Assembly (NCBI GenBank): GCA_949287245.1
Contig: CASEFL010000010.1
Location: 1-36,068 of the forward strand
Direction: 5' to 3'
From: an uncultured Bacillota bacterium
GTDB lineage: Bacteria; Bacillota_I; Bacilli_A; RFN20; CAG-826
DNA: 36,068 nt
Below the pieces are notes generated by a model. That model was not told where the DNA came from. It saw only the letters and a list, made by a program, of their open reading frames with translations, and did not search any database. The position numbers and the translations under genes are program-made. Below are positions 599-35,748 of the stretch, one piece after another (position 1 is the stretch's first letter; the number at the start of each line of letters is the position of its first letter).

Positions 599-604
599 TA
601 TAAT
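599..604 (+). promoter_or_regulatory. -10 box for the 137-aa gene (leaderless)
   Basis: An exact TATAAT ends 6 bases before the ATG at 611, so the expected start of transcription (7 bases past the box) is the A of the start codon. No ribosome binding site is present. No convincing -35 box is seen; that region falls inside the preceding terminator. Confidence 0.6.
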
Positions 605-610
605 ATACAT

Positions 611-1024
611 ATGAATTCGTTTATATATCGGACAATTCCTCGTTTCTCTTTCATCGGAAAGAAAAGAAAAACAATTGAAGAGGCGTGGGGAGAGGTTGAA
701 GATCACCTTCATGAAGTTTTAAAAAATCTCGAGATTGATAAAGGGGGTCCAATTTATATTGGCTGTCCTTTTGAAGAGGGTTATCTAGCAGGATTTTTGG
801 GAAAATTAAATGTTTCCTCTTTGCCAAAAGGCTGGGAACTTTATGAAATTTCTGAGGGAGAATATGTTTTTTTAGAAATGGAAGAGGACCGTGAGAACAC
901 CCTTTTTCTCTTAAAAGAAGAAGCGTTAAAGAAAGGCGTTTCTCTTCTTGATCCCCCTTTTGATGTCGCTTATGGAGGAAAAGCTTATCTTGCCTATCCT
1001 CTTTCTTCTCCGCGAAATTGTTAA
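611..1024 (+). CDS. Small GyrI-like (effector-binding-like) protein, uncertain
   Basis: A 137-residue soluble protein with no signal peptide or membrane segment. The middle and C-terminal parts (about residues 60-130) read like a GyrI/AraC effector-binding fold: a strand with ExxEGEYVFLE, a helix, then a final strand pair. I judge this by pattern only, so the function (binding of a small ligand, perhaps) is inference. There is no DNA-binding domain. The ATG at 611 is the first of the frame; the next Met is internal (near residue 90). There is no ribosome binding site, and the -10 box abuts the start, pointing to leaderless translation. It stands alone between the rRNA terminator and the Asp23 gene, with no clear terminator after it. 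Base use resembles its neighbours. Confidence 0.7.
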   Translation: MNSFIYRTIPRFSFIGKKRKTIEEAWGEVEDHLHEVLKNLEIDKGGPIYIGCPFEEGYLAGFLGKLNVSSLPKGWELYEISEGEYVFLEMEEDRENTLFLLKEEALKKGVSLLDPPFDVAYGGKAYLAYPLSSPRNC

Positions 1025-1100
1025 ATCTTCGATATTGTGCGGATTTTTTTGGGGTTTATTCTTAGGATAAAGCGTGCGATAATGCAAAGTGAGGCAAGTT

Positions 1101-1451
1101 ATGGATAAAAAGAAAGAACCAAAAACACTCATTCGAATCTCAGATGATGTCATTTCGGAAGTGGCAAAGGAAGCGGCGTCGATGTGTTATGGGGTTACGG
1201 GTGTAGCGACAAAGAAAAGTGATGGTTTGTCTTCTCTTCTTTCAACAGGGAAAGACTTTAAAGGGGTTATTGTCCGTAATAAAGGAAAAGACGGAATTGA
1301 AGTGGACATTTATGTCATTCTTGCCTATGGCTTAAAAGTAACGGAAGTTATATCCGCGATCCAAAATCAAGTTGCTTTTGCTTTAAAACAGAAATTATCG
1401 TTGCCTTTATTAAAGGTTAATGTTTTTGTCGAAGATATTAAGGAAGTTTAA
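1101..1451 (+). CDS. Asp23/Gls24 (DUF322) family protein, YloU-like
   Basis: A 116-residue protein of the Asp23/Gls24 family. It has the typical N-terminal strand-helix (RISDDVISEVAKEAA), the CYGVTGV segment and a C-terminal VNVFVEDI strand. Family members are small cytosolic proteins linked to envelope homeostasis; the exact biochemical role is not settled. Its place directly before the fakA-like gene matches yloU-yloV in Bacillus and supports the call. I chose ATG 1101 because GAGG at 1091-1094 sits 6 bases upstream. A GTG at 1089 is in frame but would lie at the predicted transcript start from a GATAAT box at 1078-1083. Only 6 bases separate its stop from the next gene, so the two are almost certainly cotranscribed. 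Confidence 0.92.
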   Translation: MDKKKEPKTLIRISDDVISEVAKEAASMCYGVTGVATKKSDGLSSLLSTGKDFKGVIVRNKGKDGIEVDIYVILAYGLKVTEVISAIQNQVAFALKQKLSLPLLKVNVFVEDIKEV

Positions 1452-1457
1452 TTCGTT

Positions 1458-3149
1458 ATGAAAACCATAAATGGACAACTCTTAAAAAAGTTACTCATTT
1501 CTGGGGCAAACAATTTATACAATCACTACCCAGAAATTGACCAATTAAATGTCTTCCCGGTGCCTGATGGGGATACAGGGATGAATATGAACCTTACTTT
1601 ACGAAGTGGGGTAAAAGAAATCGTCAATAAAAGTGATGTTGCTGTCGGGACGATTGCCGATAGTTTTGCCGATGGCGTATTTAATGGTGCACGAGGGAAT
1701 AGTGGTTCCATTACTTCACAAATTTTCCGTGGTTTTGCCGATTCTTTAAAAGGAAAAAGCGAGGCGAAAGTAAGCGATATTGATGAAGCCTTCCGCCAAG
1801 GAAAAACAACTGCCTATCGCGTTGTTGAAAAACCAGTGGAAGGAACCATTCTTACCGTCATTCGTGAAAGCAGTGAGAGAGCCCATGAAAAAGTAAAGAA
1901 AGAACATTCTTTAGAAGATTATTTTGCTCTTTTAGTAAAAGAAGCCCAAATAAGTTTAGAACATACCCCTGATCTTCTCCCTGTTTTAAAACAGGTGGGT
2001 GTTGTGGACTCTGGTGGTGCTGGGTTAGTAACGATTTTAGAAGGCATGTTAAGTGCTTTAGAGGGTCGTTTTGTTGAACGGAACGAAGAAGCTCCAGAAA
2101 GTAGCAGTTCTTCTTCCTATACGCCTCCTTCTGCCTATGCGGGAGCCCAGCTTAGCGAAGATGAAGAAGGTTGGGGTTATTGTACGCAGTTTATGCTGCG
2201 TCTTGGTACCCCAGAAGAAGGGAAGCGTCCTTTCTTTGAAGAGAAGTTTGCAAATTTCCTAAAAACACATGGAAAGTCCCTTGTTTTTATGCGGAATGGG
2301 GATTTTGTTAAAGTTCACGTGCATACTTTAACTCCAGGAAAAATGCTTAATTACGCCCAAAATTACGGAGAATTTGTCACGATTGTGATTGAGAATATGT
2401 CGGAAGAACACCGGAATATTCAAGAAGGACATACGGCAACAGATTTCTCTCACGTGGAGAAAAAGGTGGACACTCCTTTCAAAGAATTTGGTCTTATCGC
2501 GGTTTCTAGTGGTCCTGGGCTTGATCAAATGTTTAAAGATTCTGGGGTTGATCAAATCGTTTCAGGTGGACAAACCATGAATCCTTCCACCGAGGACTTC
2601 TTAAAAGCAATTGATGCCTGTCATGCGAAAAATATTTTTATTCTTCCGAATAATTCAAATATTGTCATGGCCGCTTCTCAAGCCTGCGATAAAGTGGAAG
2701 GAACGGAAATTAGCGCACGTGTCATTCCTTCAAAAACAATTCTTCAAGGGCTTGTTGCTTGTTCGATGTATAGTCAAAGTGGCGATCCTGAACAAATTTA
2801 TGACGATATGAAATCGGTATTAAAAGAGATGCGTGGTGGTTCGGTAACTTACGCGATTAAAGATGCTGATATTGGAGGAATTCATATTACCAAAGATTAT
2901 TATCTTTCGATTAAAGATGATAAGGGCTTGGTGGCTTGTTTAAAGGATAAAGAGGAAGCGTTATTTTCTTTAGTAGAAGCTCTTGTTAACGAAGATAGTG
3001 CCAGCGTTACAATTATTTATGGAAGTGACGTAAAAGAAGAAGATACTCTTTCTATTCAAAAGAACTTAGAAGAAAAATTTCCTGATTTAGAAATTAATAT
3101 CCAAAATGGTGGACAGCCTGTTTACTCCTTCCTTGTAGGAGTAGATTAA
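1458..3149 (+). CDS. fakA: DAK-domain kinase, fatty acid kinase subunit A-like (YloV)
   Basis: A 563-residue protein that in Firmicutes phosphorylates fatty acids carried by a FakB protein, feeding acyl-phosphate into phospholipid synthesis. The N-terminal DhaL-type domain carries PVPDGDTGMN (residues 34-43), whose Asp residues bind Mg-ADP, and GARGNSGSITSQIFRG. The C-terminal half has the SGGQTMNPSTEDFL motif and a segment on NNSNI that is typical of the family. A Ser-rich linker is present near residues 213-222. No fakB lies in the window, so the partner is elsewhere. The gene follows the Asp23 gene and ends in a strong terminator. plsX, the next step for acyl-phosphate, is nearby at 5210. 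Length matches B. subtilis YloV (about 550). Confidence 0.92.
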   Translation: MKTINGQLLKKLLISGANNLYNHYPEIDQLNVFPVPDGDTGMNMNLTLRSGVKEIVNKSDVAVGTIADSFADGVFNGARGNSGSITSQIFRGFADSLKGKSEAKVSDIDEAFRQGKTTAYRVVEKPVEGTILTVIRESSERAHEKVKKEHSLEDYFALLVKEAQISLEHTPDLLPVLKQVGVVDSGGAGLVTILEGMLSALEGRFVERNEEAPESSSSSSYTPPSAYAGAQLSEDEEGWGYCTQFMLRLGTPEEGKRPFFEEKFANFLKTHGKSLVFMRNGDFVKVHVHTLTPGKMLNYAQNYGEFVTIVIENMSEEHRNIQEGHTATDFSHVEKKVDTPFKEFGLIAVSSGPGLDQMFKDSGVDQIVSGGQTMNPSTEDFLKAIDACHAKNIFILPNNSNIVMAASQACDKVEGTEISARVIPSKTILQGLVACSMYSQSGDPEQIYDDMKSVLKEMRGGSVTYAIKDADIGGIHITKDYYLSIKDDKGLVACLKDKEEALFSLVEALVNEDSASVTIIYGSDVKEEDTLSIQKNLEEKFPDLEINIQNGGQPVYSFLVGVD

Positions 3150-3154
3150 GAAAG

Positions 3155-3178
3155 ACGACTCTTCGAGAGTCGTTTTTT
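3155..3178 (+). terminator. Terminator after fakA
   Basis: An 8-bp stem, ACGACTCT/AGAGTCGT with a TCG loop, is followed by a T run. The recG -10 box begins 4 bases after the run, so the two signals are packed end to end. Confidence 0.9.
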
Positions 3179-3181
3179 CTT

Positions 3182-3187
3182 TATAAT
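3182..3187 (+). promoter_or_regulatory. -10 box for recG (leaderless)
   Basis: An exact TATAAT is followed by six bases (GGAGGC) and then the ATG at 3194, so the predicted transcript starts on the start codon. The GGAGG looks like a ribosome binding site but lies 1 base from the ATG, too close to work as one, and most of it would not be in the mRNA. Confidence 0.65.
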
Positions 3188-3193
3188 GGAGGC

Positions 3194-5167
3194 ATGAAAA
3201 AAACCTTACTTCCTCCTACTGTTATCAAAGGCGGTTTCCTAAACGAAGAATCCGTCTTAACGCATTTACCAAAACGTTATGAAGATTTTCATTTCACGCC
3301 GCTAAAATCCTTTTATCAAGAAAAGGAGCGCGTTGTTTTTAAAGGAAGGATTATCAAGGGTTCATTTCGTTTCACGCGTTTTTATAAGCGAAGTTTAATT
3401 TCTTTTTCTTTTGAAAGAGAAGATGGATGTATTTTTCATGTCGAAGCGTGGAATCGCGACTACCTTCTTCATCAAAAAGAAGAGATGGAGATGTTATTAA
3501 CCGGTTTTTACGAAAGAAAAAGAAAGTCCATCCGTTTGGAAAATTTGATTAAAGTTCCTATGAAAGAAGAAAGTCTTTTAAAAGGAATTTATCATTTGCC
3601 AGAATGCATTTCCCAAGCAACCTTTCGTCAAACCGTAAAAGGAATCTTTGAGAAAAAAGGAGAAGAAATTTGCGATGTAATTCCCGAAAAATATCGCTTG
3701 AAATATCGTCTTCTTCATAGAAAAGATGCCTTGTGGTATGCACATTTCCCCAAAAACAAAGAAGAAGTTCATCAAGCATTACGAACTTTAAAATACGAAG
3801 AAGCTTTACGTTTTGAATGTGCAAATGAACTCATTAAAGGGGAAAACTACCGTTTACAAAAAGAAAATCTTCGAGAAATGGATAAGGAAAAGATTGCTTC
3901 TTTTATTAAAAATCTTCCTTATTCTTTATTAGAAGATCAACGGCAAGCCTTTCGCGAAATTTATCGTGATTTAGAGAAAAAAGGCGTAATGTATCGTCTT
4001 TTGCAAGGAGATGTAGGGACAGGGAAAACCTTAGTGGCTGCTCTTGCCTGCTTTGCCAATAGTACTAGACGCGCTCAAAGTGCACTTATGGCCCCAACGG
4101 AATCATTAGCTAGACAGCACTATCGGACTTTTCAGGAACTCTTTGCGAATACTCCTTTAAAAATAGCCCTTCTTACCGGTTCTACTCCTTTAACCGAAAA
4201 AAGAGAAATTCTTACGGATTTATATGCGGGAGAAATTGATATTTTAATTGGCACACATTCCTTATTTTCAAAAAGCGTTCGTTATTTAAATTTAGGGCTA
4301 GTAATTATTGATGAACAACATAAATTTGGCGTTAACCAAAGAAGCAGTTTATTAGGAAAGGGGGAACATTCCGACCTTCTTTTGATGAGTGCTACCCCTA
4401 TCCCGCGAACTTTAAGTCTGGCTTTATTTGGCAATATGGATATTTCTACTCTTCATGAATTTCCGCACGGCATAAGAAAAGTAACAACGAAAATTTTCTC
4501 TCCCGATGATCCTACTATTTTAGAGACTGTATTGTCGATGCTTGATGAAAAACGCCAAATATACATTGTTCTTCCCCATATTGAAGGTGAAAGCGCTCTC
4601 ATATCAGTGAAAAAACTATACGAACAGTTTCAAAAACTTTTTCCTAGCGAATGTATTTTGCTCCATGGGAAGATGAGTCAAGAAGAGAAAAACGAGGCAG
4701 AGAACTGTTTCCGTGAAGGGGAAAAGCACATTCTTATTGCTACCTCTTTAGTCGAAGTTGGTTTAGATGTACCTAATGCTGGGTTAATGATCATATATCA
4801 CGCTTCTTCTTTTTCTTTATCAAGTATTCATCAACTTCGTGGGAGAGTAGGAAGAGATGGGAAAAAGGCTTATTGTTATTTGGTGGATGAAGGAAGCGAA
4901 GAAGGAGAAAAGCTTAAGATTCTAGAAAAAAATAACGATGGATTTGCTATATCGGAAGCAGATTTATCCTTAAGAGGTCCGGGAGATTTTATTGGAGTAC
5001 GACAAGCTGGCCTTCCTGAGTTTAATTATTGTAATGTGGTAAATGATGTGAAGATTTTTGATTGCGCCCTAGAAGATGCCAAGGAAATTCTTAACGATAA
5101 TTCTTATAAAGACTCTCTTCTTCTTGAAGAGGCAAAAGAAGATAGCATGGGTCATTTCCTTTCATAG
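3194..5167 (+). CDS. recG: ATP-dependent DNA helicase RecG
   Basis: A 657-residue branch-migrating helicase that remodels stalled forks and Holliday junctions. Helicase motifs are in order: Walker A GDVGTGKT (about residues 273-280), DEQHKFGVNQR from D373, SATPIPRT, HGKM, SLVEVGLDVPNA and LRGRVGRDG. The N-terminal wedge/OB region spans roughly residues 20-150. The extreme N-terminus is short: after LLPPTVIKGG it goes straight to LTHLPKRYEDF, so about a dozen residues of the usual KGVG helix-hairpin-helix are missing. No upstream in-frame start would restore it, because the terminator and promoter lie there. The start is leaderless. The next gene, plsX, begins 42 bases downstream with its own -10-like TATACT (5188-5193). 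recG-plsX adjacency is conserved in Bacilli. Confidence 0.97.
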   Translation: MKKTLLPPTVIKGGFLNEESVLTHLPKRYEDFHFTPLKSFYQEKERVVFKGRIIKGSFRFTRFYKRSLISFSFEREDGCIFHVEAWNRDYLLHQKEEMEMLLTGFYERKRKSIRLENLIKVPMKEESLLKGIYHLPECISQATFRQTVKGIFEKKGEEICDVIPEKYRLKYRLLHRKDALWYAHFPKNKEEVHQALRTLKYEEALRFECANELIKGENYRLQKENLREMDKEKIASFIKNLPYSLLEDQRQAFREIYRDLEKKGVMYRLLQGDVGTGKTLVAALACFANSTRRAQSALMAPTESLARQHYRTFQELFANTPLKIALLTGSTPLTEKREILTDLYAGEIDILIGTHSLFSKSVRYLNLGLVIIDEQHKFGVNQRSSLLGKGEHSDLLLMSATPIPRTLSLALFGNMDISTLHEFPHGIRKVTTKIFSPDDPTILETVLSMLDEKRQIYIVLPHIEGESALISVKKLYEQFQKLFPSECILLHGKMSQEEKNEAENCFREGEKHILIATSLVEVGLDVPNAGLMIIYHASSFSLSSIHQLRGRVGRDGKKAYCYLVDEGSEEGEKLKILEKNNDGFAISEADLSLRGPGDFIGVRQAGLPEFNYCNVVNDVKIFDCALEDAKEILNDNSYKDSLLLEEAKEDSMGHFLS

Positions 5168-5209
5168 AGAGAGGAAGAAAGTTAGGGTATACTAAGAAAG
5201 GGTGAGGAT

Positions 5210-7876: not shown

Positions 7877-8193
7877 TGAAAAAAGAAAGTTTAGAAGAAC
7901 GTTTATTTCTTATTTCTTTATATGACACCTATGGTGTTTTACTAAGTAAAAGCCAAAAAGAGGCTTTTGAAGCTCATTATTTTGCGGATTTGTCTTTTAG
8001 CGAAATTTCTAGTGAACAAGAAATGTCAAGGGCGGCTGTCGCGGACGCTTTAAAAAAGGCTGTAACAAGATTAAAGAAGTGGGAAAAGTGCCTCCATGAA
8101 GTAGAATTAAAAGAAAAAGCACTATGTCTACTAGAAGAGGGAAGCGAACAATCTTTAAAACAATTAAAGGAGTTATTAACACATGGCATTTGA
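7873..8193 (+). CDS. ylxM: YlxM/p13-like putative DNA-binding protein
   Basis: A 106-residue protein of the YlxM (UPF0122) family with a sigma-70 region 4-like helix-turn-helix: YGVLLSKSQKEAFEAHYFADLSFSEIS, then SRAAVADALKKA (about residues 18-62). It usually lies before ffh and is thought to modulate SRP pathway expression or assembly; the mechanism is not clear. ATG 7873 overlaps the ftsY stop as ATGA; ATG 7876 is an equal alternative. It overlaps ffh by 11 bases, which fits coupled translation of ftsY-ylxM-ffh. Confidence 0.93.
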   Translation: MMKKESLEERLFLISLYDTYGVLLSKSQKEAFEAHYFADLSFSEISSEQEMSRAAVADALKKAVTRLKKWEKCLHEVELKEKALCLLEEGSEQSLKQLKELLTHGI

Positions 8194-9517: not shown

Positions 9518-9530
9518 AAAGGAGAAAGAT

Positions 9531-10409: not shown

Positions 10410-10420
10410 TGCAATTTTAT

Positions 10421-12013: not shown

Positions 12014-12015
12014 TG

Positions 12016-12843: not shown

Positions 12844-12856
12844 CTTCCCTAACATT

Positions 12857-12877
12857 AAGCCCCTTCAGGGGCTTTTT
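12857..12877 (+). terminator. Terminator after rplS
   Basis: A 7-bp stem (AAGCCCC with GGGGCTT) and TTCA loop is followed by a T-rich tail. The lepB -10 box starts 8 bases later. Confidence 0.9.
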
Positions 12878-12884
12878 CTTTCGC

Positions 12885-12890
12885 TATAAT
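12885..12890 (+). promoter_or_regulatory. -10 box for lepB (near-leaderless)
   Basis: An exact TATAAT ends 9 bases before the ATG at 12900, predicting a leader of about 3 bases. The only purine-rich stretch (AAGG) is 2 bases from the ATG, too close for a ribosome binding site. Confidence 0.6.
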
Positions 12891-12899
12891 GATAAGGTT

Positions 12900-13682
12900 A
12901 TGTCTAATACTTCGCCTTTACCACCTCTTAGAAAAAAGAAACCATTCAGTATAAAAAATACCATTTTTTATCTTGTTCGGATTTTGTGTTTTTTTCTTAT
13001 TGTTCTTGGTATTTCTTGCGGTTCCCAAATTCTTTATTGGCGTTATCGCTATCAAAGTTTTGTTGTTAATGGTTCCTCGATGTATCCAACGTTAAATTTT
13101 GATGCTGAGATGTTTATTGATGGAGTTAAGCAAGAAATTCCTGCCAGTGAGCTTGGGGGTTTTCATGGTGGTGATAATGTTGTTTACCATTGTGATTATG
13201 GTTTGGCCGATTCTTCTGATGATTTTGTTTCAAAGTTGGATCGATTTTCTATTGTCTTGACTTATTATGAAAACGATTTTGACTCTCAAGGAATTGTAAG
13301 AGATGGTGCCTCTTTAAAAGTAAAACGGATCTTAGGTCTTCCTGGTGAGACGGTTTATTTTGATGAGAACGGTGATTTTTATGTAAATGATGAACTTGTT
13401 CCGCAAGATTTTTTAAAGGGAACTGCGTTAGAAATTTTTGAAAGTACGAAGAAAGAAACAGGGGCGACAAAAGCGATTACTTTAAAAGAAGATGAATATT
13501 ATTTGGTTGGTGATAACCGTAAAGAAGGAGCTTCTGACGATAGTCGTTTTGAAGGTCCCATTAAGGAGAGTTGGCTTATTGCTAAGGCAGTAGGCATTGT
13601 GGGAAAATGTGCTTATGAACCAAGTGGAGGAACAACAACTTTTCTTTCTTATCGATATCCATGGGAGGTTCAACTTTTATGA
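12900..13682 (+). CDS. lepB: Signal peptidase I
   Basis: A 260-residue membrane protease that removes signal peptides outside the membrane. A basic N-terminus (RKKK) and one membrane segment (about residues 20-45) are followed by the catalytic Ser60 in NGSSMYPTL, Lys142 in LKVKRILGLPGE, and the late GDNRKEGASDDSR motif. There is no second membrane segment. The region between Ser60 and Lys142 is longer than in the smallest Gram-positive enzymes. The gene starts nearly leaderless after the rplS terminator and overlaps rbgA by 4 bases (ATGA). lepB-rbgA-rnhB adjacency is common in Bacilli. Confidence 0.96.
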   Translation: MSNTSPLPPLRKKKPFSIKNTIFYLVRILCFFLIVLGISCGSQILYWRYRYQSFVVNGSSMYPTLNFDAEMFIDGVKQEIPASELGGFHGGDNVVYHCDYGLADSSDDFVSKLDRFSIVLTYYENDFDSQGIVRDGASLKVKRILGLPGETVYFDENGDFYVNDELVPQDFLKGTALEIFESTKKETGATKAITLKEDEYYLVGDNRKEGASDDSRFEGPIKESWLIAKAVGIVGKCAYEPSGGTTTFLSYRYPWEVQLL

Positions 13683-22539: not shown

Positions 22540-22545
22540 TATAAT
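22540..22545 (+). promoter_or_regulatory. -10 box for pyrH (near-leaderless)
   Basis: An exact TATAAT ends 8 bases before the ATG at 22554, predicting a leader of about 2 bases. AAAGG lies 1 base from the ATG, too close for normal use. A TTGATA at 22512-22517 is 22 bases from the box, longer than usual for a -35. Confidence 0.6.
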
Positions 22546-22553: not shown

Positions 22554-23282
22554 ATGAAATCCATATATAAAACAATTATTGTGAAAGTGTCCGGCGAATC
22601 TCTTGCCGACGAACATGATCAAACAATTTTAGATCGTAATAAACTTTCTTCGATTGCAAAATCGATTTTTGCTGCTCATGAAATGGGGGCAAAAATTGGT
22701 TTAGTTGTGGGAGCAGGAAACATTTGGCGAGGGAAACTTGCGCATAAAGTTGGTATTGAACAAGCAACGGGTGACTATATGGGGATGCTTGGGACCATCA
22801 TTAACGCTTTAGCTTTGCAAAGTGCTTTAGAAGAAGTTGGTTTATCAACAAGAGTGATGTCTTCGATTAATGTTCCTCAAGTGTCAGAACCTTATATTAG
22901 AAGAAAAGCATTATCTCATTTAGAAAAAGGGCGTATTGTCATTTTTGCTGGAGGAACAGGAAATCCTTTCTTTACTACAGATACAACTGCCTCTTTAAGA
23001 GCCTTAGAGATGAAAGCAGACGCCATCATTATGGGTAAAAATGGTGTTGAAGGGATTTATGATTCGGATCCTCACTTAAATGAAGATGCAAAGTTCTTAA
23101 GTAGTCTTACCTATCGTGAAGTAATAGAACGCAATCTTGGCGTAATGGATATGACGGCGGTGACCATGCTTGAAGGAAAAGGGATTATCATTCGCGTGTT
23201 TAATATGGACCATTTTTCTTCTTTAACGGATGTTTTATCAGGAAAAGAAGTAGGAAGCATTATTGAAGATGAGGAGGCCTAA
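22554..23282 (+). CDS. pyrH: Uridylate kinase (UMP kinase)
   Basis: A 242-residue amino-acid-kinase-fold enzyme that makes UDP from UMP. It has the N-terminal VKVSGESLAD, GLVVGAGNIWRG, the GDYMGMLGTIINALAL stretch, FAGGTGNPFFTTDTTASLRA and VMDMTAVTM. It opens a pyrH-frr unit behind its own near-leaderless promoter, whereas in Bacillus it is read from rpsB-tsf. Its last codons carry the AGGAGG of frr. Confidence 0.97.
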   Translation: MKSIYKTIIVKVSGESLADEHDQTILDRNKLSSIAKSIFAAHEMGAKIGLVVGAGNIWRGKLAHKVGIEQATGDYMGMLGTIINALALQSALEEVGLSTRVMSSINVPQVSEPYIRRKALSHLEKGRIVIFAGGTGNPFFTTDTTASLRALEMKADAIIMGKNGVEGIYDSDPHLNEDAKFLSSLTYREVIERNLGVMDMTAVTMLEGKGIIIRVFNMDHFSSLTDVLSGKEVGSIIEDEEA

Positions 23283-23284
23283 AA

Positions 23285-23853: not shown

Positions 23854-24759
23854 TTATTGGATATTAATCGTTTTATCCTGACAGACGATGCTTGTTAATG
23901 AAGAATTCACATTCCAAGCATCGTCTTTTTTAATGAGATTCCAACTCGTCGAAGTTCCCTCATAATAAATAGTTTCAATTCCAGAGTAGGCAAAAGCTTC
24001 TCGTCCAATGCTTTCAATGGAGACAGAAAAGGAAAGGGAAGTTAAGGAGGTGCAATATTCAAAAGCGTGCTCTTCTAAACTTGTTAAGGAATTAGGGAGC
24101 GTAATGTTTTCTAATTTCTCGGCATGCGAAAAAGCGTATTTTCCTATGCAAAATCCTTCTTGGCTGCGATAGCCATCCGTAAAATGAATTTCTTTTAAGG
24201 AAGGACTATTTTCAAAACTGTAATCTCCTATCTTTAGGATAGGGGAAGGGAAATAAACTCTTTCAATTAAAGAATCTTTTAATAATCCATTTCCTTTTTC
24301 TTGAGCGGTGGTTCCTAGAATAAAATAAAGAGGTGATGTTTCATTTTCATATTCTAAAGTAGGAAAAATGAGAGAAATGGCTTCCTCTTTAATAGGGGAG
24401 ATATCTTCAACAAAAAAACCGTTATAGTGTTCACCTTTTGTCAATAAAAATGGATTGATTGCTTCTCCATTTTCGCTTAGTCTTATCATTTCTTTATCAT
24501 AAAGTCCGCTTCTTCCATCATCATAATGAAGAGCGTGCGTCTCATTGCTAGGAGTTGGTTTGTTCAGTTCTATTGCTCCAATCGTGATACTTGTAATAAG
24601 AAGAGCAAGGAGCAAGGTACCAATAATGCCCGAAAGGATAAAAGTAAGTTTGGCTTTCTTTTTTATCTGATCGGGATCTTGCGGAGAAAGGTTATCATTC
24701 TTTTTAATACCAAGAGGTGGGAGAGTTACATTTTCTTCGGGTGTTTCATGATTATTCAT
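23854..24759 (-). CDS. BspA-like leucine-rich repeat membrane protein
   Basis: A 301-residue protein with a polar N-terminus, one membrane segment (about residues 32-60, TFILSGIIGTLLLALLITSITIGAIEL-like) and a large, probably extracellular, C-terminal part. Residues from about 165 on are LRR_5-type repeats: IGDYSFENSPSLKEIHF, IGKYAFSHAEKLENITLP, LEEHAFEYCTSLTSLSF, IGREAFAYSGIETIYYEG. Such repeats occur in surface proteins of gut Firmicutes and may bind partners; the function here is unknown. ATG 24759 is chosen because a TACAAT box ends exactly 6 bases upstream; ATG 24765 abuts the box. It sits on the opposite strand inside the normally continuous frr-uppS segment. Confidence 0.88.
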   Translation of the reverse strand: MNNHETPEENVTLPPLGIKKNDNLSPQDPDQIKKKAKLTFILSGIIGTLLLALLITSITIGAIELNKPTPSNETHALHYDDGRSGLYDKEMIRLSENGEAINPFLLTKGEHYNGFFVEDISPIKEEAISLIFPTLEYENETSPLYFILGTTAQEKGNGLLKDSLIERVYFPSPILKIGDYSFENSPSLKEIHFTDGYRSQEGFCIGKYAFSHAEKLENITLPNSLTSLEEHAFEYCTSLTSLSFSVSIESIGREAFAYSGIETIYYEGTSTSWNLIKKDDAWNVNSSLTSIVCQDKTINIQ

Positions 24760-24765
24760 GGGCAT

Positions 24766-24771
24766 ATTGTA
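24766..24771 (-). promoter_or_regulatory. -10 box for the LRR gene (leaderless)
   Basis: On the minus strand TACAAT is followed by six bases (ATGCCC) and then ATG 24759, the same spacing as at recG. A partial -35 (AAGACA) lies about 18 bases upstream. It shares the 92-base divergent region with uppS. Confidence 0.5.
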
Positions 24772-24837
24772 TCGAGTTTTTCTTCATTTGTCTTACGTCA
24801 TATTGTGCATCTTATCCATACAATTGTTCATTTAAGG

Positions 24838-24843
24838 TATAAT
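24838..24843 (+). promoter_or_regulatory. -10 box for uppS operon (near-leaderless)
   Basis: An exact TATAAT ends 8 bases before ATG 24852, predicting a leader of about 2 bases. No ribosome binding site is present and no clear -35 at 17 bases. Confidence 0.6.
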
Positions 24844-24851
24844 GAACAAGT

Positions 24852-25580
24852 ATGAAAAAGCATTTCCCTCCCTTAATGAACATTCCAAACCATGTGGCAT
24901 TTATTATGGATGGGAACGGGAGATGGGCGCAGCAGCGAGGATTACCGCGTTCTATTGGCCATAAAGTTGCTTGTGAACGATTAAAGGATGTTTTTTATGC
25001 CGCAAAAGAATTTGGTATCCGTTACGCAAGTTTATATGCTTTTTCAACAGAAAATTGGAATCGCCCCAAGGAAGAAATAGAACAATTGATGAGATATTTA
25101 GTTGATTTTTGTGAAAAGGATTTCCCTCTTTTGAAAAAGGAAGGAATTCGTTTAATCCATTCTGGGCGAAAAGAACGATTACCCGATAAAACCAAAATTG
25201 CTTTGGAAAAGGCAATTGATGAATCAAAAGATAACAATTGTTTAACTATTAATATTTGTCTTGATTATGGGGGAAGGGATGAAATTGTTCGTGCGATTAA
25301 GAAAATAGGGAAAGATCTTGAAGCAAAGAAAATTGATCTTGCTTCCTTTGACGAAAAAACTTTTCATACTTATTTAGATCATCCTGAACTTCCAGATGTC
25401 GACTTTTTAATACGTACCTCAGGAGAAGAAAGAATCTCAAACTATCTTTTATATGAACTTGCCTATGCAGAACTTTATTTTACCCCAACTTATTGGCCTG
25501 ATTTTAATAAGGAAGAACTTTATAAGGCTTTGGTGGAGTTTGGTAAAAGAAATCGGAGATTTGGAAAGGTTTTTGCATGA
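24852..25580 (+). CDS. uppS: Isoprenyl transferase (undecaprenyl diphosphate synthase)
   Basis: A 242-residue cis-prenyltransferase that builds the C55 lipid carrier for cell-wall polymers. It has the active-site MDGNGRWAQQRG with Asp20, then SLYAFSTENWNRPKEE and the C-terminal DFLIRTSGEERISNYLLYELAYAELYF, DFNKEEL motifs. It starts nearly leaderless and heads the unit uppS-cdsA-dxr-rseP-polC. It overlaps cdsA by 4 bases (ATGA). Its presence argues for a bacterium that still makes envelope polymers. Confidence 0.97.
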   Translation: MKKHFPPLMNIPNHVAFIMDGNGRWAQQRGLPRSIGHKVACERLKDVFYAAKEFGIRYASLYAFSTENWNRPKEEIEQLMRYLVDFCEKDFPLLKKEGIRLIHSGRKERLPDKTKIALEKAIDESKDNNCLTINICLDYGGRDEIVRAIKKIGKDLEAKKIDLASFDEKTFHTYLDHPELPDVDFLIRTSGEERISNYLLYELAYAELYFTPTYWPDFNKEELYKALVEFGKRNRRFGKVFA

Positions 25581-26620: not shown

Positions 26621-26621
26621 A

Positions 26622-29122: not shown

Positions 29123-29130
29123 GAGGATGT

Positions 29131-32100
29131 ATGGAAGACTTAACAGAAAGATTTCTTCGCTCCATTCATTGTCCTTCTCTTGAATATAGCGATTTTAAAG
29201 TTTTGGAAGCAAAACAAGTAAATGGGGTTTGTCATATTTCGATTTGGAAGAAAACTTATTGGACCACAGAAGAATTGTTCCCTTTTTTAAACGCGCTTAC
29301 TACCATTCCTTATGCCTATTCCCTTTCTTTTACCTATGAAACGAGAATGGAGGAGGGAGAACTTGCTCACTTTTTAGAAGATTATGCTTTACAAGAAGAA
29401 CGGTTATTGCTGAAACACATTTCCTTTCTCGCAAAAGGGGTATCTTTTGCTTATGAGAATGAAAAAGAGGAAGAAAAATTAAATCAAATTTCTAAGCGCG
29501 TTAAAGAACTCTTTACTTTTTTAAATTATCCATCTCCTTATAACAAAATTTATGTAGAACCTTTTACCGAAGAAGAGACAATTTCTCTCCCATTAGAAGA
29601 GAAGAAAGAAGGAGAAATTCAAGCTCCTATTGAAAAAAGAGAAGACTGGGAAGAGGAAAGACAATTAGAAGAAGAAAAAGAACGACAGGAAAAAGAGGAA
29701 GCAGGGCAACGTTTTGTGGAAAGCATCCGTTATGCTCATTTCTTAGAGACAAGAAAACGTTCTAGTAAACGGGGGAATTATATTTCTTGCACATCAATTG
29801 AAGAAGCGATTTCTCTTCAAGAAGGGAATGTTGAAATCCGTGCAAAAGTCGCTTCTTTTGATTTTAAATTAACAAAAAAAGGAAGTTATGGTGGCACAAT
29901 TCTTCTATACGATGCAACCTCTGGAATTAATGCGCGCGTATATGAAGGGAAAAGCGTTGATAAAGAGGTTTTACTGAATTTAAAAGAGGATGATTACGTT
30001 GAAATTAAAGGGGGTCTTGAGTTAGAAGAGCATACTCAGGAAATCCAAATTTATGTTCATTCTCTCATAAAAAAGGATGAACCTTTACGTGATGATCTAG
30101 AGGAAGAAAAACGGGTAGAGCTTCATCTTCATACCAAAATGTCCGCAATGGACGCAACGGCCGATATTGATGATTATTGTCGTCTGGCTTCTCATATGGG
30201 TATGAAGGCGATTGCGGTAACCGATCATGGCGTCGTCCAGTCTTATCCCGCTGCGCAAAAAGCGGCAGCAAAGTATGGTCTAAAGATGCTCTATGGTATT
30301 GAATTTTATATGTTCGATTATCCAACCTATGCCTATCGACCATCGAATATTCCCTTACTGCGAGGAAAGTATTGTGTTTTTGACTTTGAGACTACAGGTT
30401 TATCTTCAACTTATGACCGACCAACTGAGTTTGGCGCTGTGTTAGTAGAAGATGGAGTTGTTCGTGCTAGATTTGATACTTTTATTAATCCTGAACAAAA
30501 GATTCCTGTCTTTATTCAAGAGAAAACACACATTACTGACGAGATGGTAAAAGATGCCCCAAAAAATAAAGAAGCATTAGAAAAAATTGAACAATTTATT
30601 GGGGATGCCACTCTTGTCAGCCATAACGCAACCTTTGATATAGGTTTTTTAAATGCCATGCGTGAAAGAGAGGGGAAGGTTCCCATTGAAAATCCGGTTA
30701 TTGATACCCTTGCCCTTTCTCACTATTTATTTCCTGATGCAAAAGGGCATCGCTTAGGGGATTTATCAAAAAACCTTAAATTAGACTTTTATGATGATAA
30801 ACAAGCGCACCGCGCAGATTTTGACGCGGAAGCCCTTGCCCATGTATGGAACGCTATTGTTACAATTTTAACCAAAGATAATGTAAATATGACTCTTGAG
30901 GATTTAGCGAACCTTCATAGCGATTCTTTATCCATATTCCGTCATTTGCGCTCTCAACATTGTTGTGCCATTGCTAAGAATAAAGAAGGCTTACGCGATT
31001 TATACCGTCTTGTTTCAGAAAGTCATGTTACTTATCTTTCTAGTGGAGCCGAACCAAAAATTCCGCGGTCTGAACTTGTTAAATATCGAAAAAATTTGCT
31101 TTTAGGGTCTGCTTGTTTTAATGGAGAAATATTTGAAATTGCTTCACGTAGACGTTATCAAGATTTACTAGAGGCTGTACGTTTTTACGATTACATAGAA
31201 ATTCAGCCTCCTGCTAATTATTCCTATCGCGTAAATATTGGTGATTTTACTTCTGAGCGAATTTTGGAACTTTTAAAAACGATATGTAAAGCTGCAGAGG
31301 AAGCGGGAGTTATGGTTTGTGCAACAGGGGACTGTCACTATTTAAACCCGGAAGATAAACTCTCACGCGATGTATTAATTGCGTCTCGCTCTGTAGGAAG
31401 AGGTACTCATCCTTTAGCTCGCGGACGTTCTTCAGCGAACCCTTTTCCAAATCCCGATCAACATTTCCGTTCAACAAGAGAAATGATTGAATGTTTTTCC
31501 TCCTTCTTGCCTGAAGAGTATGTACGGAAAATTGTTATTGAAAATACAAATACTATCGCTAATTTATGCGACCCTTTGGTCATTTTAAAAGATCGCTTAT
31601 ATTCACCGACTGCTAATTTACCTGGAAGTGACGAAAAATTACGAGAAATTTGTTATGCCAATTTAAAAGCAAAGTATGGAGACCATCCTGATCCCAAAAT
31701 CAAAGAACGTCTTGATAAAGAATTAAACGGTATTATTAGTAATGGATATAGTGTTACCTATTATATTGCTCATTTAATTATTAAAAAGGCGCATGAAGAT
31801 GGTTATATTGTTGGCTCACGAGGATCTGTTGGTTCCTCTTTTGCCGCAACCATGGCCAATATTACTGAGGTAAATCCCTTACCTCCTCACTATTTATGCT
31901 CGAAATGTAAGCACCTCGAATGGGGGGTTGGTGTTCGATCAGGATTTGATTTATCCGAAAAAAGATGCCCGATTTGCGGGGAATTAATGGAAAGAGATGG
32001 TCAAAACATTCCTTTTGAAACCTTCTTAGGTTTTAACGCAGATAAGGTTCCTGATATTGATTTAAATTTCCCTAAAGATTATCAAAGCAAAGCCCATGCT

Positions 32101-33561
32101 TATGCACGTGAATTACTCTCTTCAAAAGAAGAAAACGAACTCATTGCCAAAAATATTCCTGTAACAAGTCCTCATGTTGTTCGAGCAGGTACCATATCCA
32201 CAACGGAAGAAAAAAACGCCATTGGGTATGTCAAAAAGGAGTATATTGAACGCTTTTTGGGAAAAGATTCCTCTACTTTTTCTCGTTCCTATATTCGTGC
32301 TTTAGCGCATCGCATCGTGGGAGTAAAACGAACCACAGGTCAACATCCTGGAGGAATTGTTGTTATTCCTAAAGATATGGAAATTTTTGATTTCACCCCT
32401 TTCCAACATCCTGCTGATGACCCCGATGCCAGCTGGCTAACAACCCATTTTGAATTTGCGAGTATGCATGATTGTCTTTTGAAATTGGACTTATTAGGCC
32501 ATGTTGATCCTTTAGCTTTGCGTAGCTTAGCCTTAAGAACAAAAATTCCCGCTGATGAAGTACCTCTTACGGATGAGAAAGTAATTTCTTTGTTTCGAAG
32601 CCCGGACGCTCTCCATTTATCCTCCAATCCTCTTGGTTTTAAAACAGGAGCGATTGGTTTACCTGAATTTGGTACAGATTTTGTTCAACGAATTCTTATC
32701 GAAGCATTGCCTTCTTCTTTTAACGATTTGCTAATTATTTCTGGAATTAGCCACGGTACAGATGTATGGGCGAATAACATTCAAGATATTGTTCGTGAAG
32801 GAGTGGCCTCTTTACAGGAAGTTATTGGATGTCGTGATGATATTATGACGTATCTTATTTCGATGGGTGTTCCTTCTCTGGACGCTTTTAAAATTATGGA
32901 AAGTGTTCGACATGGGAAAGGAGTTAATGAAGCTCAAGAAAGGTTGATGAGGGAACATGGTGTGCCAGAATGGTATTTAACATCGTGCAACAAAATTCGT
33001 TACTTATTTCCTCGAGCACACGCTACAGCCTATGTTATTAATGCTGTAAGGAATGCTTGGTATAAGCTTTATCGTCCACTAGATTTTTACGCTACTTATT
33101 TCTCTGTTCGCTGTGAAAAATTTGATATTACTGCCATGTTATCCGGTCTTGATGCTGTTTCTCGTGCTTATCAGCAATTAGAGGCAAGACAGCATAGCAG
33201 TGAAGCAAAAAATACGGATCATGACTATATGAAGTCTTTACAAGCCTGTGCGGAACTTTATGCCCGTGGTTTTAAAGTAGATAACATTTCTATTACGCGT
33301 TCTCTTGCTACTGATTGGGCTGTTGACTATCAAAGGAAATCAGTTATTCCTCCTTTTATTGTTTTAAACGGCTTAGGGGAAGCAGTCGCCCAGTCTGTTG
33401 TGGACGCACGGAATGAGGCAGAATTTTTATCACAAGAAGATTTATCTGAGCGTACCTTGTTATCTCAAGAGCATTTAAAACAGCTAGAAAAACTAGGTGC
33501 GCTAGACGGATTAAACAAATCAAATCAAATGTCTTTGTTTGATTTCTTCCCCCTTGAGTGA
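29131..33561 (+). CDS. polC: DNA polymerase III subunit alpha, PolC type
   Basis: A 1476-residue replicative polymerase of low-GC Gram-positives. In order: an N-terminal domain with a Glu/Lys-rich linker (about 140-195), an OB fold (about 220-320), a PHP domain starting at VELHLHTKMSAMDA (His332), the inserted 3'-5' exonuclease with FDFETTGLSS (Asp418, Glu420), SHNATFDIGFL and HRADFDAEAL, then the remainder of PHP. The polymerase domain has the zinc site (Cys923 in CSKCKHLEW, later CPICGEL) and catalytic PDIDLNF (Asp975, Asp977). AGGAGG 4 bases upstream sets the start. It is the last protein gene of the unit and is followed by tRNA-Pro without a terminator between. Slightly longer than the Bacillus enzyme (1437). 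Confidence 0.98.
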   Translation: MEDLTERFLRSIHCPSLEYSDFKVLEAKQVNGVCHISIWKKTYWTTEELFPFLNALTTIPYAYSLSFTYETRMEEGELAHFLEDYALQEERLLLKHISFLAKGVSFAYENEKEEEKLNQISKRVKELFTFLNYPSPYNKIYVEPFTEEETISLPLEEKKEGEIQAPIEKREDWEEERQLEEEKERQEKEEAGQRFVESIRYAHFLETRKRSSKRGNYISCTSIEEAISLQEGNVEIRAKVASFDFKLTKKGSYGGTILLYDATSGINARVYEGKSVDKEVLLNLKEDDYVEIKGGLELEEHTQEIQIYVHSLIKKDEPLRDDLEEEKRVELHLHTKMSAMDATADIDDYCRLASHMGMKAIAVTDHGVVQSYPAAQKAAAKYGLKMLYGIEFYMFDYPTYAYRPSNIPLLRGKYCVFDFETTGLSSTYDRPTEFGAVLVEDGVVRARFDTFINPEQKIPVFIQEKTHITDEMVKDAPKNKEALEKIEQFIGDATLVSHNATFDIGFLNAMREREGKVPIENPVIDTLALSHYLFPDAKGHRLGDLSKNLKLDFYDDKQAHRADFDAEALAHVWNAIVTILTKDNVNMTLEDLANLHSDSLSIFRHLRSQHCCAIAKNKEGLRDLYRLVSESHVTYLSSGAEPKIPRSELVKYRKNLLLGSACFNGEIFEIASRRRYQDLLEAVRFYDYIEIQPPANYSYRVNIGDFTSERILELLKTICKAAEEAGVMVCATGDCHYLNPEDKLSRDVLIASRSVGRGTHPLARGRSSANPFPNPDQHFRSTREMIECFSSFLPEEYVRKIVIENTNTIANLCDPLVILKDRLYSPTANLPGSDEKLREICYANLKAKYGDHPDPKIKERLDKELNGIISNGYSVTYYIAHLIIKKAHEDGYIVGSRGSVGSSFAATMANITEVNPLPPHYLCSKCKHLEWGVGVRSGFDLSEKRCPICGELMERDGQNIPFETFLGFNADKVPDIDLNFPKDYQSKAHAYARELLSSKEENELIAKNIPVTSPHVVRAGTISTTEEKNAIGYVKKEYIERFLGKDSSTFSRSYIRALAHRIVGVKRTTGQHPGGIVVIPKDMEIFDFTPFQHPADDPDASWLTTHFEFASMHDCLLKLDLLGHVDPLALRSLALRTKIPADEVPLTDEKVISLFRSPDALHLSSNPLGFKTGAIGLPEFGTDFVQRILIEALPSSFNDLLIISGISHGTDVWANNIQDIVREGVASLQEVIGCRDDIMTYLISMGVPSLDAFKIMESVRHGKGVNEAQERLMREHGVPEWYLTSCNKIRYLFPRAHATAYVINAVRNAWYKLYRPLDFYATYFSVRCEKFDITAMLSGLDAVSRAYQQLEARQHSSEAKNTDHDYMKSLQACAELYARGFKVDNISITRSLATDWAVDYQRKSVIPPFIVLNGLGEAVAQSVVDARNEAEFLSQEDLSERTLLSQEHLKQLEKLGALDGLNKSNQMSLFDFFPLE

Positions 33562-33577
33562 TAAAGTTTTTTGCCCT

Positions 33578-33654
33578 CGGGACGTAGCACAGTTTGGTAG
33601 TGCGCCTGGTTCGGGACCAGGAGGTCACGGGTTCAATTCCCGTCGTTCCGACCA
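33578..33654 (+). tRNA. tRNA-Pro, anticodon CGG
   Basis: A 77-base cloverleaf with acceptor CGGGACG/CGTTCCG, anticodon stem CCTGG/CCAGG and loop TTCGGGA, T arm CGGG-TTCAATT-CCCG, and an encoded CCA. It follows polC by 16 bases and is probably processed from the polC transcript. G37 after the anticodon fits TrmD methylation. Confidence 0.96.
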
Positions 33655-33663
33655 CGACTAATT

Positions 33664-33687
33664 ACCTCGATAATATCGAGGTTTTTT
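33664..33687 (+). terminator. Terminator after tRNA-Pro
   Basis: An 8-bp stem ACCTCGAT/ATCGAGGT with AAT loop and a six-T tail closes the uppS-to-tRNA-Pro unit. Confidence 0.92.
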
Positions 33688-33710
33688 CTTTTATTATTTT
33701 TCTTTTCTAA

Positions 33711-33740
33711 TTGGAATAAGAGACGAGTAAAATATATAAA
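33711..33740 (+). promoter_or_regulatory. Promoter for tRNA-Arg
   Basis: TTGGAA (33711-33716) with TATATA (33733-33738, spacing 16) or TATAAA (33735-33740, spacing 18). Either predicts a start at or just inside the tRNA gene that begins at 33743, so any 5' leader would be minimal. Confidence 0.5.
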
Positions 33741-33742
33741 GT

Positions 33743-33819
33743 GCGACCGTAGCTCAGCTGGATAGAGCACTTCCCTCCTAAGGAAGGGGTCAGGCGTTCG
33801 AATCGCCTCGGTCGCGCCA
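33743..33819 (+). tRNA. tRNA-Arg, anticodon CCT
   Basis: A 77-base cloverleaf: acceptor GCGACCG/CGGTCGC, anticodon stem CTTCC/GGAAG with loop CTCCTAA, T arm AGGCG-TTCGAAT-CGCCT, encoded CCA. It reads AGG codons. A separate promoter lies directly upstream. The 120 bases after it (33820-33939) are AT-rich with no gene that I can see. Confidence 0.96.
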
Positions 33820-33939
33820 ATTTGCTAGCTTATTGTTTTATTTCTCCTGTCTTATTCGGATGAAATATTTAATATTTATTGAGAAAACAATCTAAAAATA
33901 TCTAAAAAACGATGCAAAACTTATTTAAATTTTCTGTTT

Positions 33940-34275
33940 TTAAAAAGAACCTTCATATGAAGGAATAGGAAAAGCAAACATTGCTCCATGAATCAGTTCA
34001 AAGGATTTTGTATAGTCACGAATTAGTTCTTTAACCTCTTCTAATTTCTCTTCCTCAAGAATGATAAACATAGTTGTTGAACCAGAATATTCAGAGGGGG
34101 TTTCGGCAATATCAGATAAAGATAAGGTTGCGTGTGGTTCCTTCATTTCCTGAATGACGTGCCGCAATCCAGCGGTCTCTAATATGGTTGCGTTGTAGCC
34201 TTTTTTAAAAATAGCGCGATGAAGGGCATCAGTTCTTGGGCCTTTATCGAGAACAGAATAAAGCAATACTTTCAT
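33940..34275 (-). CDS. Small PII-like / DUF970-like protein
   Basis: A 111-residue protein whose pattern of strands and helices suggests a PII-like ferredoxin fold: MKVLLYSVLDKG, a helix, then a strand; after a loop, SGSTTMFIILEEEKLEEVKELIRDYTK resembles the GNTTLLIGVEDEKVDEVLEII part of cyclic-di-AMP receptors (DarA/PstA). The usual TGGFLxxG ligand loop is not present; instead there is a longer loop (MKEPHATLSLSDIAETPSEY). Ligand and function are unknown. AAAGGA 9 bases upstream supports ATG 34275, a conventional leader with a GATAAT-like box. It is divergent from the antiporter gene 96 bases away, which suggests a link to ion homeostasis. Confidence 0.75.
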   Translation of the reverse strand: MKVLLYSVLDKGPRTDALHRAIFKKGYNATILETAGLRHVIQEMKEPHATLSLSDIAETPSEYSGSTTMFIILEEEKLEEVKELIRDYTKSFELIHGAMFAFPIPSYEGSF

Positions 34276-34359
34276 AGTAATTTTTCCTTTACTCTTTATT
34301 ATCTCATTAGTTTTAGAAGAGCAAAAGCGCTTACTTACGCTATCTTGAAGTTGAAGGAT

Positions 34360-34365
34360 TAGAAT
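34360..34365 (+). promoter_or_regulatory. -10 box for the antiporter gene (leaderless)
   Basis: TAGAAT is followed by six bases and ATG 34372, the same spacing as at recG and 611. No ribosome binding site and no clear -35 are seen. Confidence 0.5.
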
Positions 34366-34371
34366 AAAACT

Positions 34372-35748
34372 ATGACGAATTTAATGACGGATTTAGTTAC
34401 GGGAAGTGCCTTCGAAGTGTTGCTGCCTGTAGCGCTTATTCTTGCTTTAGCAAAACTATTAGGAATCCTTTTTGAAAAATTGAAAATTCCTTCGGTTATT
34501 GGTATTCTTTGTGCAGGTTTACTGGTAGGTCTATTAACATTTATTCCCGGAGAAACTGTCTTAACTCCTTATACAAAACAAGGAATCGATATATTAGCGA
34601 AATTTGGGGTAGTTTTTATCCTTTTTACTGCAGGTTTAGAAACCAATGTTAAGCAGATTAAAGCAGTAGGAAAGTCCGCAATTGTAATTACTTCTTTAGG
34701 GGTCATTTGTCCTCTTGTTTTTGGGTTTTTGCTTGCTTTCCTTTTTCGAAAATATGGTGGCTTATCTGTAGATTATTTAGAACAGGGAATTGATCCGATA
34801 TGGAGTGATTTATATTATGGGGTCATTCTTACGGCAACCTCGGTCTCTATTACGGTTACTACTTTAAAGGAACTAGGAAAATTAAATGGGAAAGTAGGTT
34901 CAGCCATTATTTCCGCCGCCATCATAGATGATGTGATTGGAATTGTTCTTCTTTCATTAATTCTTTCTTTTTCGGGAGCTTCTCTTGCAGGTACAGATTT
35001 TAATCTTTTAATTTTCCTTTTAGAAAGTATGGGCGCCTCCATTGAAGGAATTTGGGAGATTGTTTGTATCATTGTCAATATGGGCCTTTTTGTCCTACTT
35101 TCTTTTGCAGTAGGGTACGGGGTACGTAAGCTCTTCAATTGGCTAGGGGAAAAGTATCCTCATCATATTCGTATCCCTATTTTGTCCCTTGCTTTTTGCT
35201 TTTTGTGGGCATATCTCGCACAGGGATTTTTTCAAATTGCGGATATTACAGGGGCATACGTTGCAGGATTAATCCTTGCTCCAACACGCCCCAAGGAGTA
35301 TATCGATCACCGCGCAGAAACGACAATGAATGTCTTCTTTGTTCCAATCTTTTTTGCTTCTGTTGCTTTAAAAATGTATAACGCCTCGCTAGATTTTAGT
35401 GACTATCTCTTTTTAATTTTTGGTTTTACTTACGTTATTGCTGCTTTATTAGGAAAGGTTATCGGCGCAGGCAGTGGCGCTTTATTGTGTCGTTTTAATT
35501 TAAAAGACTCTTTGTCCATTGGTGTAGGAATGATGGCCCGCGCTGAAGTTGTTGTTGTTACTGCACAAACAGGAATTGACGCAGGTTTAGTCAATGCGGG
35601 AATTATGCCTTTTACTCTTTTAATTATTTTATTATCAAGTTTTTTGACACCTATCCTTTTGCGTCTTTTAAGCAAAAACGATGAAGGAAGAGGAAGGGGA
35701 AACATTTTGCATAAAGAAGAAAATCAAAGTTCCTCTATTTGTTCTTGA
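34372..35748 (+). CDS. Cation:proton antiporter, CPA2 (Kef/NapA-like)
   Basis: A 458-residue membrane protein with about 12-13 hydrophobic segments in the Na+/H+ exchanger fold. The ion-binding DD pair (Asp186, Asp187) is in AAIIDDVIGIVLLS, as expected for electrogenic CPA2 transporters. Other family marks are LFTAGLETN near residues 84-92, GVILTATSVSITV before the DD site, and GMMARAEVVVV near the end. There is no RCK/TrkA-N regulatory domain; the protein ends in a short charged tail (EGRGRGNILHKEENQ). The divergent PII-like protein may supply regulation in trans, which is inference. The ion (Na+ or K+) cannot be told from sequence. Only a weak hairpin (35754-35769, no T run) follows. Confidence 0.92.
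   Translation: MTNLMTDLVTGSAFEVLLPVALILALAKLLGILFEKLKIPSVIGILCAGLLVGLLTFIPGETVLTPYTKQGIDILAKFGVVFILFTAGLETNVKQIKAVGKSAIVITSLGVICPLVFGFLLAFLFRKYGGLSVDYLEQGIDPIWSDLYYGVILTATSVSITVTTLKELGKLNGKVGSAIISAAIIDDVIGIVLLSLILSFSGASLAGTDFNLLIFLLESMGASIEGIWEIVCIIVNMGLFVLLSFAVGYGVRKLFNWLGEKYPHHIRIPILSLAFCFLWAYLAQGFFQIADITGAYVAGLILAPTRPKEYIDHRAETTMNVFFVPIFFASVALKMYNASLDFSDYLFLIFGFTYVIAALLGKVIGAGSGALLCRFNLKDSLSIGVGMMARAEVVVVTAQTGIDAGLVNAGIMPFTLLIILLSSFLTPILLRLLSKNDEGRGRGNILHKEENQSSSICS

Follow-up and report, generated by a model that had tools for sequence, protein, structure and literature searches.

Promoter boxes close to start codons point to leaderless and near-leaderless mRNAs in an uncultured lineage of Bacilli

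Results

Promoter boxes at unit heads of the window

The window analysed here is a stretch of 36,068 bases (contig C10, positions 1–36068) from the genome of an uncultured bacterium of the Bacilli (G000; 1,116,766 bases in 13 contigs; GC content 37% in our genome sample). Seven of its transcription units, headed by recG, lepB, pyrH, uppS, a leucine-rich repeat (LRR) protein gene, an antiporter gene and a short open reading frame (ORF), carry a −10 promoter box that ends only a few bases before the ATG (Table 1). From the sequence evidence below we consider it very likely that this lineage makes leaderless mRNAs, with 0–1 nucleotides (nt) ahead of the start codon, and near-leaderless mRNAs, with 2–4 nt, alongside ordinary Shine-Dalgarno (SD) initiation. 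The boxes had been pointed out in a first-pass annotation of the window, and on reading the sequence directly we found all seven at the positions given there, at unit heads. Five are exact TATAAT, as it had noted, the others being TACAAT (LRR gene) and TAGAAT (antiporter). By an eye count the window has about 14 unit heads, of which the boxed ones are thus seven.

Table 1. Boxes and the genes that they precede in the window. Gap, number of bases between box and ATG; aa, amino acids; "by eye" marks visual assignments.
Feature	Coordinates	Strand	Remarks
−10 box TATAAT	599..604	+	Gap 6 to ATG 611; unit follows 5S rRNA; among the genome's 25 TATAATN6ATG sites
Unit-head ORF, 137 aa	611..1024	+	Predicted leaderless; without Pfam match
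−10 box TATAAT	3182..3187	+	Gap 6 to recG ATG 3194; abuts U-tract of preceding terminator (by eye)
recG	3194..5167	+	Predicted leaderless (0 nt); Pfam RecG_dom3_C, DEAD, Helicase_C
−10 box TATAAT	12885..12890	+	Gap 9 to lepB ATG 12900; downstream of terminator hairpin (by eye)
lepB, signal peptidase	12900..13682	+	Predicted 3-nt leader; Pfam Peptidase_S26
−10 box TATAAT	22540..22545	+	Gap 8 to pyrH ATG 22554
pyrH, UMP kinase	22554..23282	+	Predicted 2–3-nt leader; Pfam AA_kinase
−10 box TACAAT	24766..24771	−	Gap 6 to second in-frame ATG of LRR gene (24759)
BspA-type LRR protein	23854..24759	−	Predicted leaderless from ATG 24759; longest ORF starts at 24765; Pfam LRR_5
−10 box TATAAT	24838..24843	+	Gap 8 to uppS ATG 24852
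uppS, undecaprenyl diphosphate synthase	24852..25580	+	Predicted 2-nt leader; Pfam Prenyltransf
−10 box TAGAAT	34360..34365	+	Gap 6 to antiporter ATG 34372
Na+/H+ exchanger family protein (antiporter)	34372..35748	+	Predicted leaderless; Pfam Na_H_Exchanger

The further in-frame ATG of the LRR gene, at 24765, stands immediately after the box, and only the ATG at 24759 lies within an mRNA begun seven bases past it. Single boxes, for example the TAGAAT at 34360, could be chance matches. Besides the ORF at 611–1024, a second one in the window, at 33940–34275, is without a Pfam match.

Enrichment at unit heads of the genome

We sampled 20 stretches of 20 kb, which together with the window make up 436 kb of the 1,117-kb genome (39%). 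Genes were called with a simple coding-score model, and 342 of 376 were used, after removal of edge genes and of genes that lacked an ATG start or started close to the end of a stretch. Starts were set by a rule blind to boxes, as the 5′-most ATG with at most 30 nt overlap of the upstream gene; a start model based on coding score alone was discarded because it made recG and uppS too short. A box was defined as TA...T with at least 5/6 matches at a gap of 6–10 bases before the ATG, and counts were compared with 200 dinucleotide shuffles.

Boxes were found at 38 of 190 unit heads (shuffle mean 5.75, standard deviation 2.46, maximum of 200 shuffles 14) and at only 2 of 152 operon-internal genes (shuffle mean 3.13), so that the enrichment is confined to heads. 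The same was true of exact TATAAT, present at 21/190 heads (shuffle 0.63) and at none of the 152 internal genes (0.37). This excess, seen at heads only, bears out the expectation of the first-pass annotation for a genome scan of this kind. Boxes precede 18 of the 68 heads that follow an opposite-strand neighbour, genes for which a promoter of their own is expected, and 20 of the 122 same-strand heads. When the gap was counted in bins of five bases, two head boxes fell at 1–5, 38 at 6–10 and one at 11–15, followed by 11, 17 and 11 (39 in total) in the bins of 16–30; the implied leaders are either 0–4 nt or about 10 nt and longer, with little between. The 38 boxed heads include five of the seven in the window; those of ATG 611 (an edge gene) and of the LRR gene (where the start rule chose the earlier ATG) are missing.

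Across the whole genome TATAATN6ATG occurs 25 times, versus 6 for a reversed control, and 20 of the 25 sites are intergenic and head an ORF of at least 50 aa (5 are not of this kind). The preference is for AUG: in the sample, exact TATAAT, wherever it stands, is followed at gaps 6–10 by ATG 40 times, versus about 17 predicted from gaps 11–44, and neither GTG (3; 8 predicted) nor TTG (22; 19 predicted) is enriched at that distance. No SD word accompanies any of the 38 boxed heads, compared with 80 of the 152 other heads (p = 5 × 10⁻¹¹); the remaining 72 of those 152 have neither an SD word nor a near box. SD words are present in 89/152 operon-internal genes, and the coexistence of SD sites within operons and leaderless-type heads, described at first for the window, therefore extends to the genome sample.

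Boxed heads make up 18–20% of heads in the sample (about 17%, or one in six, net of chance), versus 50% in the window, and boxed genes about 10% of all genes (38/342, chance not subtracted). As a kind, unit-head starts that are leaderless or nearly so find support in the genome sample and in the relatives and orthologs described below, but the claim that they dominate operon heads was too strong.

Occurrence in related genomes

For comparison across genomes one pipeline was used throughout, with a gene model slightly unlike that used above; 334 genes of the own genome entered it, and 34 of its 186 heads were boxed (shuffle 5.9). Four genomes of the same genus gave 38/220 heads (shuffle 4.3), and four of the same family from other genera 32/166 (shuffle 8.6). 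The peak at gaps 6–10 thus recurs in same-genus and same-family genomes, the comparison with relatives that had been suggested for the window. It is absent from seven genomes that represent other families in the class, where 11 of 257 heads were boxed versus 16.1 in shuffles; own genome, genus and family together (104/572) differ from these outgroups with p = 8 × 10⁻⁹. At gaps 11–15 the counts were 13/572 for this clade and 24/257 for the outgroups, whose counts hold more chance matches. The peak is not caused by AT-richness, since it is also found in two of the same-genus genomes that have 61% GC, with boxes at 25/146 heads versus 1.4 in shuffles.

We also counted TATAAT-ATG pairs genome-wide in 97 genomes. 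Gaps 6–9 outnumbered gaps 20–23 in 37/37 genomes of the genus, in 12/22 of the rest of the family and in 4/38 of the rest of the order, an AT-rich background blurring the counts of those outside the genus. Strong within the genus, the trait also occurs in some further genera of the family; in the order beyond, it is weak and less clear.

Conservation at recG, pyrH and uppS

The recG set comprised 30 loci, 28 from the same genus and two (G060 and G072) from another family of the order. A box stands at gap 6 in 22 of the 30 and at gap 7 in one, and 16 of these 23 have the TGn of an extended −10 element; both loci from the other family have TATAAT at gap 6. Among 30 same-genus pyrH loci a box at gaps 6–11 was found in 27 (16 at gap 9, 7 at gap 10), including those of the 61% GC genomes G017 and G032, where it is set in GC-rich DNA. 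The triplet just before the ATG (loci L126–L155) is RNT in 16/30, and AAT, ACT, AGT or GCT in 14/30; 13 of the RNT-type loci have C before the triplet, a possible conserved 3-nt leader. In uppS, 26 of 30 same-genus loci have a box at gaps 7–10 (15 at 7, 8 at 8, 2 at 9, 1 at 10). The spacing of box and ATG is thus kept across same-genus orthologs, usually at 6 for recG, 7–8 for uppS and 9 for pyrH, whereas the upstream DNA diverges.

The three unboxed same-genus pyrH loci have GAGGAG ahead of the ATG instead. At the four unboxed uppS loci an upstream reading frame ends directly at the ATG (judged by eye), with GGAGG in two of them. These contrasts indicate that the initiation mode changed within the lineage and that, for uppS, it changes with operon position. 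Beyond the genus, pyrH was followed in 29 loci, the best 29 of the 102 other genomes with a match, one of which had no usable start; a box was present in 0/28, including 5 from the same family or order. Among these, the same-family genome G053 shows TAAGAT, a weaker match, at gap 9 of its pyrH, and many of the remaining loci have a GGAGG- or AAGG-like site (by eye). As a separate observation, none of the 13 genomes of one family (f17) in a class-wide sample, all listed as 95–99% complete, gave a pyrH match; possible reasons are loss, replacement or excessive divergence of UMP kinase.

Transcription start sites and promoter context

To place the transcription start we used the 104 leaderless-like heads of own genome, genus and family (34 at gap 6, 26 at gap 7, 18 at gap 8, 15 at gap 9 and 11 at gap 10), numbering bases from the end of the box. 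At gap-6 heads +6 is a pyrimidine in 88%, and the A of the ATG (+7) thus follows C or T. A purine occupies +7 in 78% of gap-8 and 80% of gap-9 heads, and among leadered promoters of the clade (n = 150) purines go up from 48% of bases at +6 to 72% at +7. These base preferences suggest a transcription start seven bases past the box, which would give leaders of 0 nt at gap 6 and of 2–3 nt at gaps 8–9. A TTGACA-like −35 element (at least 4/6 matches) accompanies 23 of the 104 leaderless-like heads, versus 10% at shifted places.

Boxes were commoner at same-strand heads with spacers of 16–79 nt (32/151) than at those with longer spacers (21/210), and of these 53 leaderless-like heads, 18 have a terminator hairpin. 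Compact spacers were considered as the driver of the trait and rejected as the whole reason, since divergent heads are boxed at 51/211. Two spacers in the window, 3150–3193 (44 bases) and 12844–12899 (56 bases), are very short, each with a terminator hairpin whose U-tract lies towards the next −10 box (by eye).

Translation machinery

No multi-domain ribosomal protein S1 was found in the own genome; its two matches, in frames of 745 and 141 aa, are single-domain. Protein bS21 was above cut-off in 55 of 61 genomes. Single-domain S1 matches together with bS21 are compatible with leaderless initiation. The exact anti-SD sequence GGATCACCTCCTTT was found in 5 of 7 same-genus assemblies.

Discussion

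We propose that in these genomes a housekeeping (sigma-A type) promoter may be placed so near to the gene that RNA polymerase would take the A of the AUG as its first base (at gap 6 and probably at gap 7) or begin 2–4 bases ahead of it (gaps 8–10). The mRNA would have no room for an SD site, and initiation would depend on an AUG recognized at the 5′ end or close to it, as on leaderless mRNAs elsewhere. The same cells would use SD sites for many operon-internal genes and for those heads whose leaders reach about 10 nt or more. The arrangement appears to be heritable, shared by the genus with at least some further genera of the same family of Bacilli.

Several observations weigh against this proposal. 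The exclusion of SD words from boxed heads is partly mechanical to some extent, as the box fills part of the window in which they are sought, and leadered transcripts from promoters farther upstream may coexist. The base signal at the start site is modest: in a control covering the base directly before the ATG, a pyrimidine also stands there in 67% of the other heads and in 46% of internal genes. Gap-7 heads have a purine at +7 in only 31%, and there a start at +8 or +6 appears more likely. The −35 signal is weaker than that of leadered promoters (39/113 versus 12% at shifted places). The trait is also uneven: one genome of the same genus, G010, had 4/38 boxed heads with no exact box, five genomes from other families of the order showed no clear excess (17/153 versus a shuffle mean of 8.9, maximum of 60 shuffles 18), and a box at 5/6 matches is lacking from 7/30 recG, 3/30 pyrH and 4/30 uppS loci. 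By eye, three of the unboxed recG loci hold a poorer TA...T match at gap 6 or 7; in the other four the start is ambiguous. On the side of the ribosome, an S1 profile (TIGR00717) was above cut-off in 0/41 genomes, but this cut-off is strict, with just 2 of the 14 control genomes passing it; the absence of a multi-domain S1 therefore rests on the shortness of the genome's own matches. Finally, GGATCACCTCCTTT is not in the own assembly nor in that of G010, the 16S gene being perhaps missing from both.

Could the boxes instead be secondary promoters, a main promoter upstream giving a long leader without an SD site, on which the AT-rich stretch ahead of the ATG aids ribosomes? SD-less leaders may be common, given the 72 of 152 other heads with neither SD word nor near box. 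The conserved letters, however, resemble a promoter (TA...T, with TGn at most boxed recG loci) more than mere AT-richness, the gap is near-fixed for each gene, recG and lepB have a terminator hairpin just upstream (by eye), and the pyrH box stands out from GC-rich surroundings in G017 and G032. We therefore regard secondary promoters as quite unlikely. We find it slightly harder still to believe that start codons are misassigned, with leadered transcripts arising from the boxes and translation truly beginning at a later in-frame codon that has an SD site of its own. Two ATGs lie by the box of the LRR gene and a second ATG lies 24 bases downstream in uppS, as such misassignment would have it; yet alignments of pyrH orthologs begin at residue 1 in 26/30, the distance from ATG to box is near-fixed despite diverged upstream DNA, and misassigned starts would not yield peaks specific to each gene (6, 7–8 and 9).

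That TATAAT-like words simply occur by chance in AT-rich intergenic DNA near starts seems to us barely credible. Chance matches are frequent with a looser box (4/6 matches), for which shuffles reach 18/190 heads, and a one-mismatch TA...T scan over all DNA shows no gap peak, the signal being confined to unit heads or to exact TATAAT. But there is no peak in dinucleotide shuffles, internal genes, adjacent gap bins or class outgroups of similar or lower GC, and for the box set as a whole a chance origin is refuted by shuffles, internal genes and outgroups.

If leaderless and near-leaderless initiation is accepted, one may ask whether selection sets the leader length of each gene (recG, 0 nt; uppS, 0–2 nt; pyrH, 3 nt; genomes of 37%–61% GC), with uppS becoming SD-led or translationally coupled once it is operon-internal. 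We put this forward tentatively and think it more doubtful than probable. If it were true, the 2–4-nt class would represent a distinct mode of initiation or control rather than loose spacing, and the choice of start site at pyrH would perhaps respond to nucleotide pools.

Leaderless transcription is already known, also in Firmicutes; new here are the lineage, the conservation among orthologs and the contrast with outgroups. Zheng et al. (2011, PMC3160421) predicted leaderless genes in 56 of 209 Firmicutes genomes, at a mean of 4.2% of genes; most belong to Lactobacillales and to Mycoplasma, the latter with a mean of 18.3% over five genomes. The first-pass annotation had set these starts against Firmicutes as a whole, a contrast that these predictions make outdated. 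The Firmicutes genes of that study resemble ours in having a Pribnow-like TANNNT near the start (TAtAAT in low-GC Firmicutes). Our case differs in being an uncultured lineage of Bacilli, of 37%–61% GC as sampled, tested by orthologs and with 18–20% of heads boxed, although the percentages are not strictly comparable because methods differ. Leaderless genes of Actinobacteria and Deinococcus-Thermus likewise have a −10-like box near the start, and they are commoner (means 19.2% and 39.4%; PMC3160421). For bacteria in general, 21.6% of species are predicted to use leaderless transcription (cited in StartLink, PMC9581028).

In Mollicutes 18% of mRNAs are on average leaderless (PMC4014445, citing Zheng 2011). 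In Mycoplasma pneumoniae 16% of transcripts have a leader of at most 8 nt; it lacks RPS1, an apparent likeness to this lineage, but has an SD motif in only 8.1% of genes, unlike the internal genes here (PMC10568206). Nine apparently leaderless transcripts are described for M. gallisepticum (PMC4245973), and in Mesoplasma florum nine genes have a transcript start exactly on the start codon (PMC7745072). S1 is reported to be dispensable and S21 to be required for leaderless mRNAs (PMC4014445). Among the matches listed in a search of the open-licence literature there was no report of leaderless starts in this lineage, nor any paper on the lineage.

An uncultured lineage of Bacilli thus joins the apparent users of leaderless mRNAs, with sampled outgroups of the same class that do not display the trait. 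The gain of leaderless initiation and its possible link to loss of S1 become comparable inside one class. In these genomes, start codons may be wrongly placed by gene callers that rely on an SD site.

The lineage resembles the GTDB orders RFN20/RF39. The nearest relatives of the window's RecG are records labelled Bacilli, Bacillota/Firmicutes or Erysipelotrichaceae, and in one relative (L049, whose name points to horse faeces) the DNA upstream of recG is that of the same-genus genome G036.

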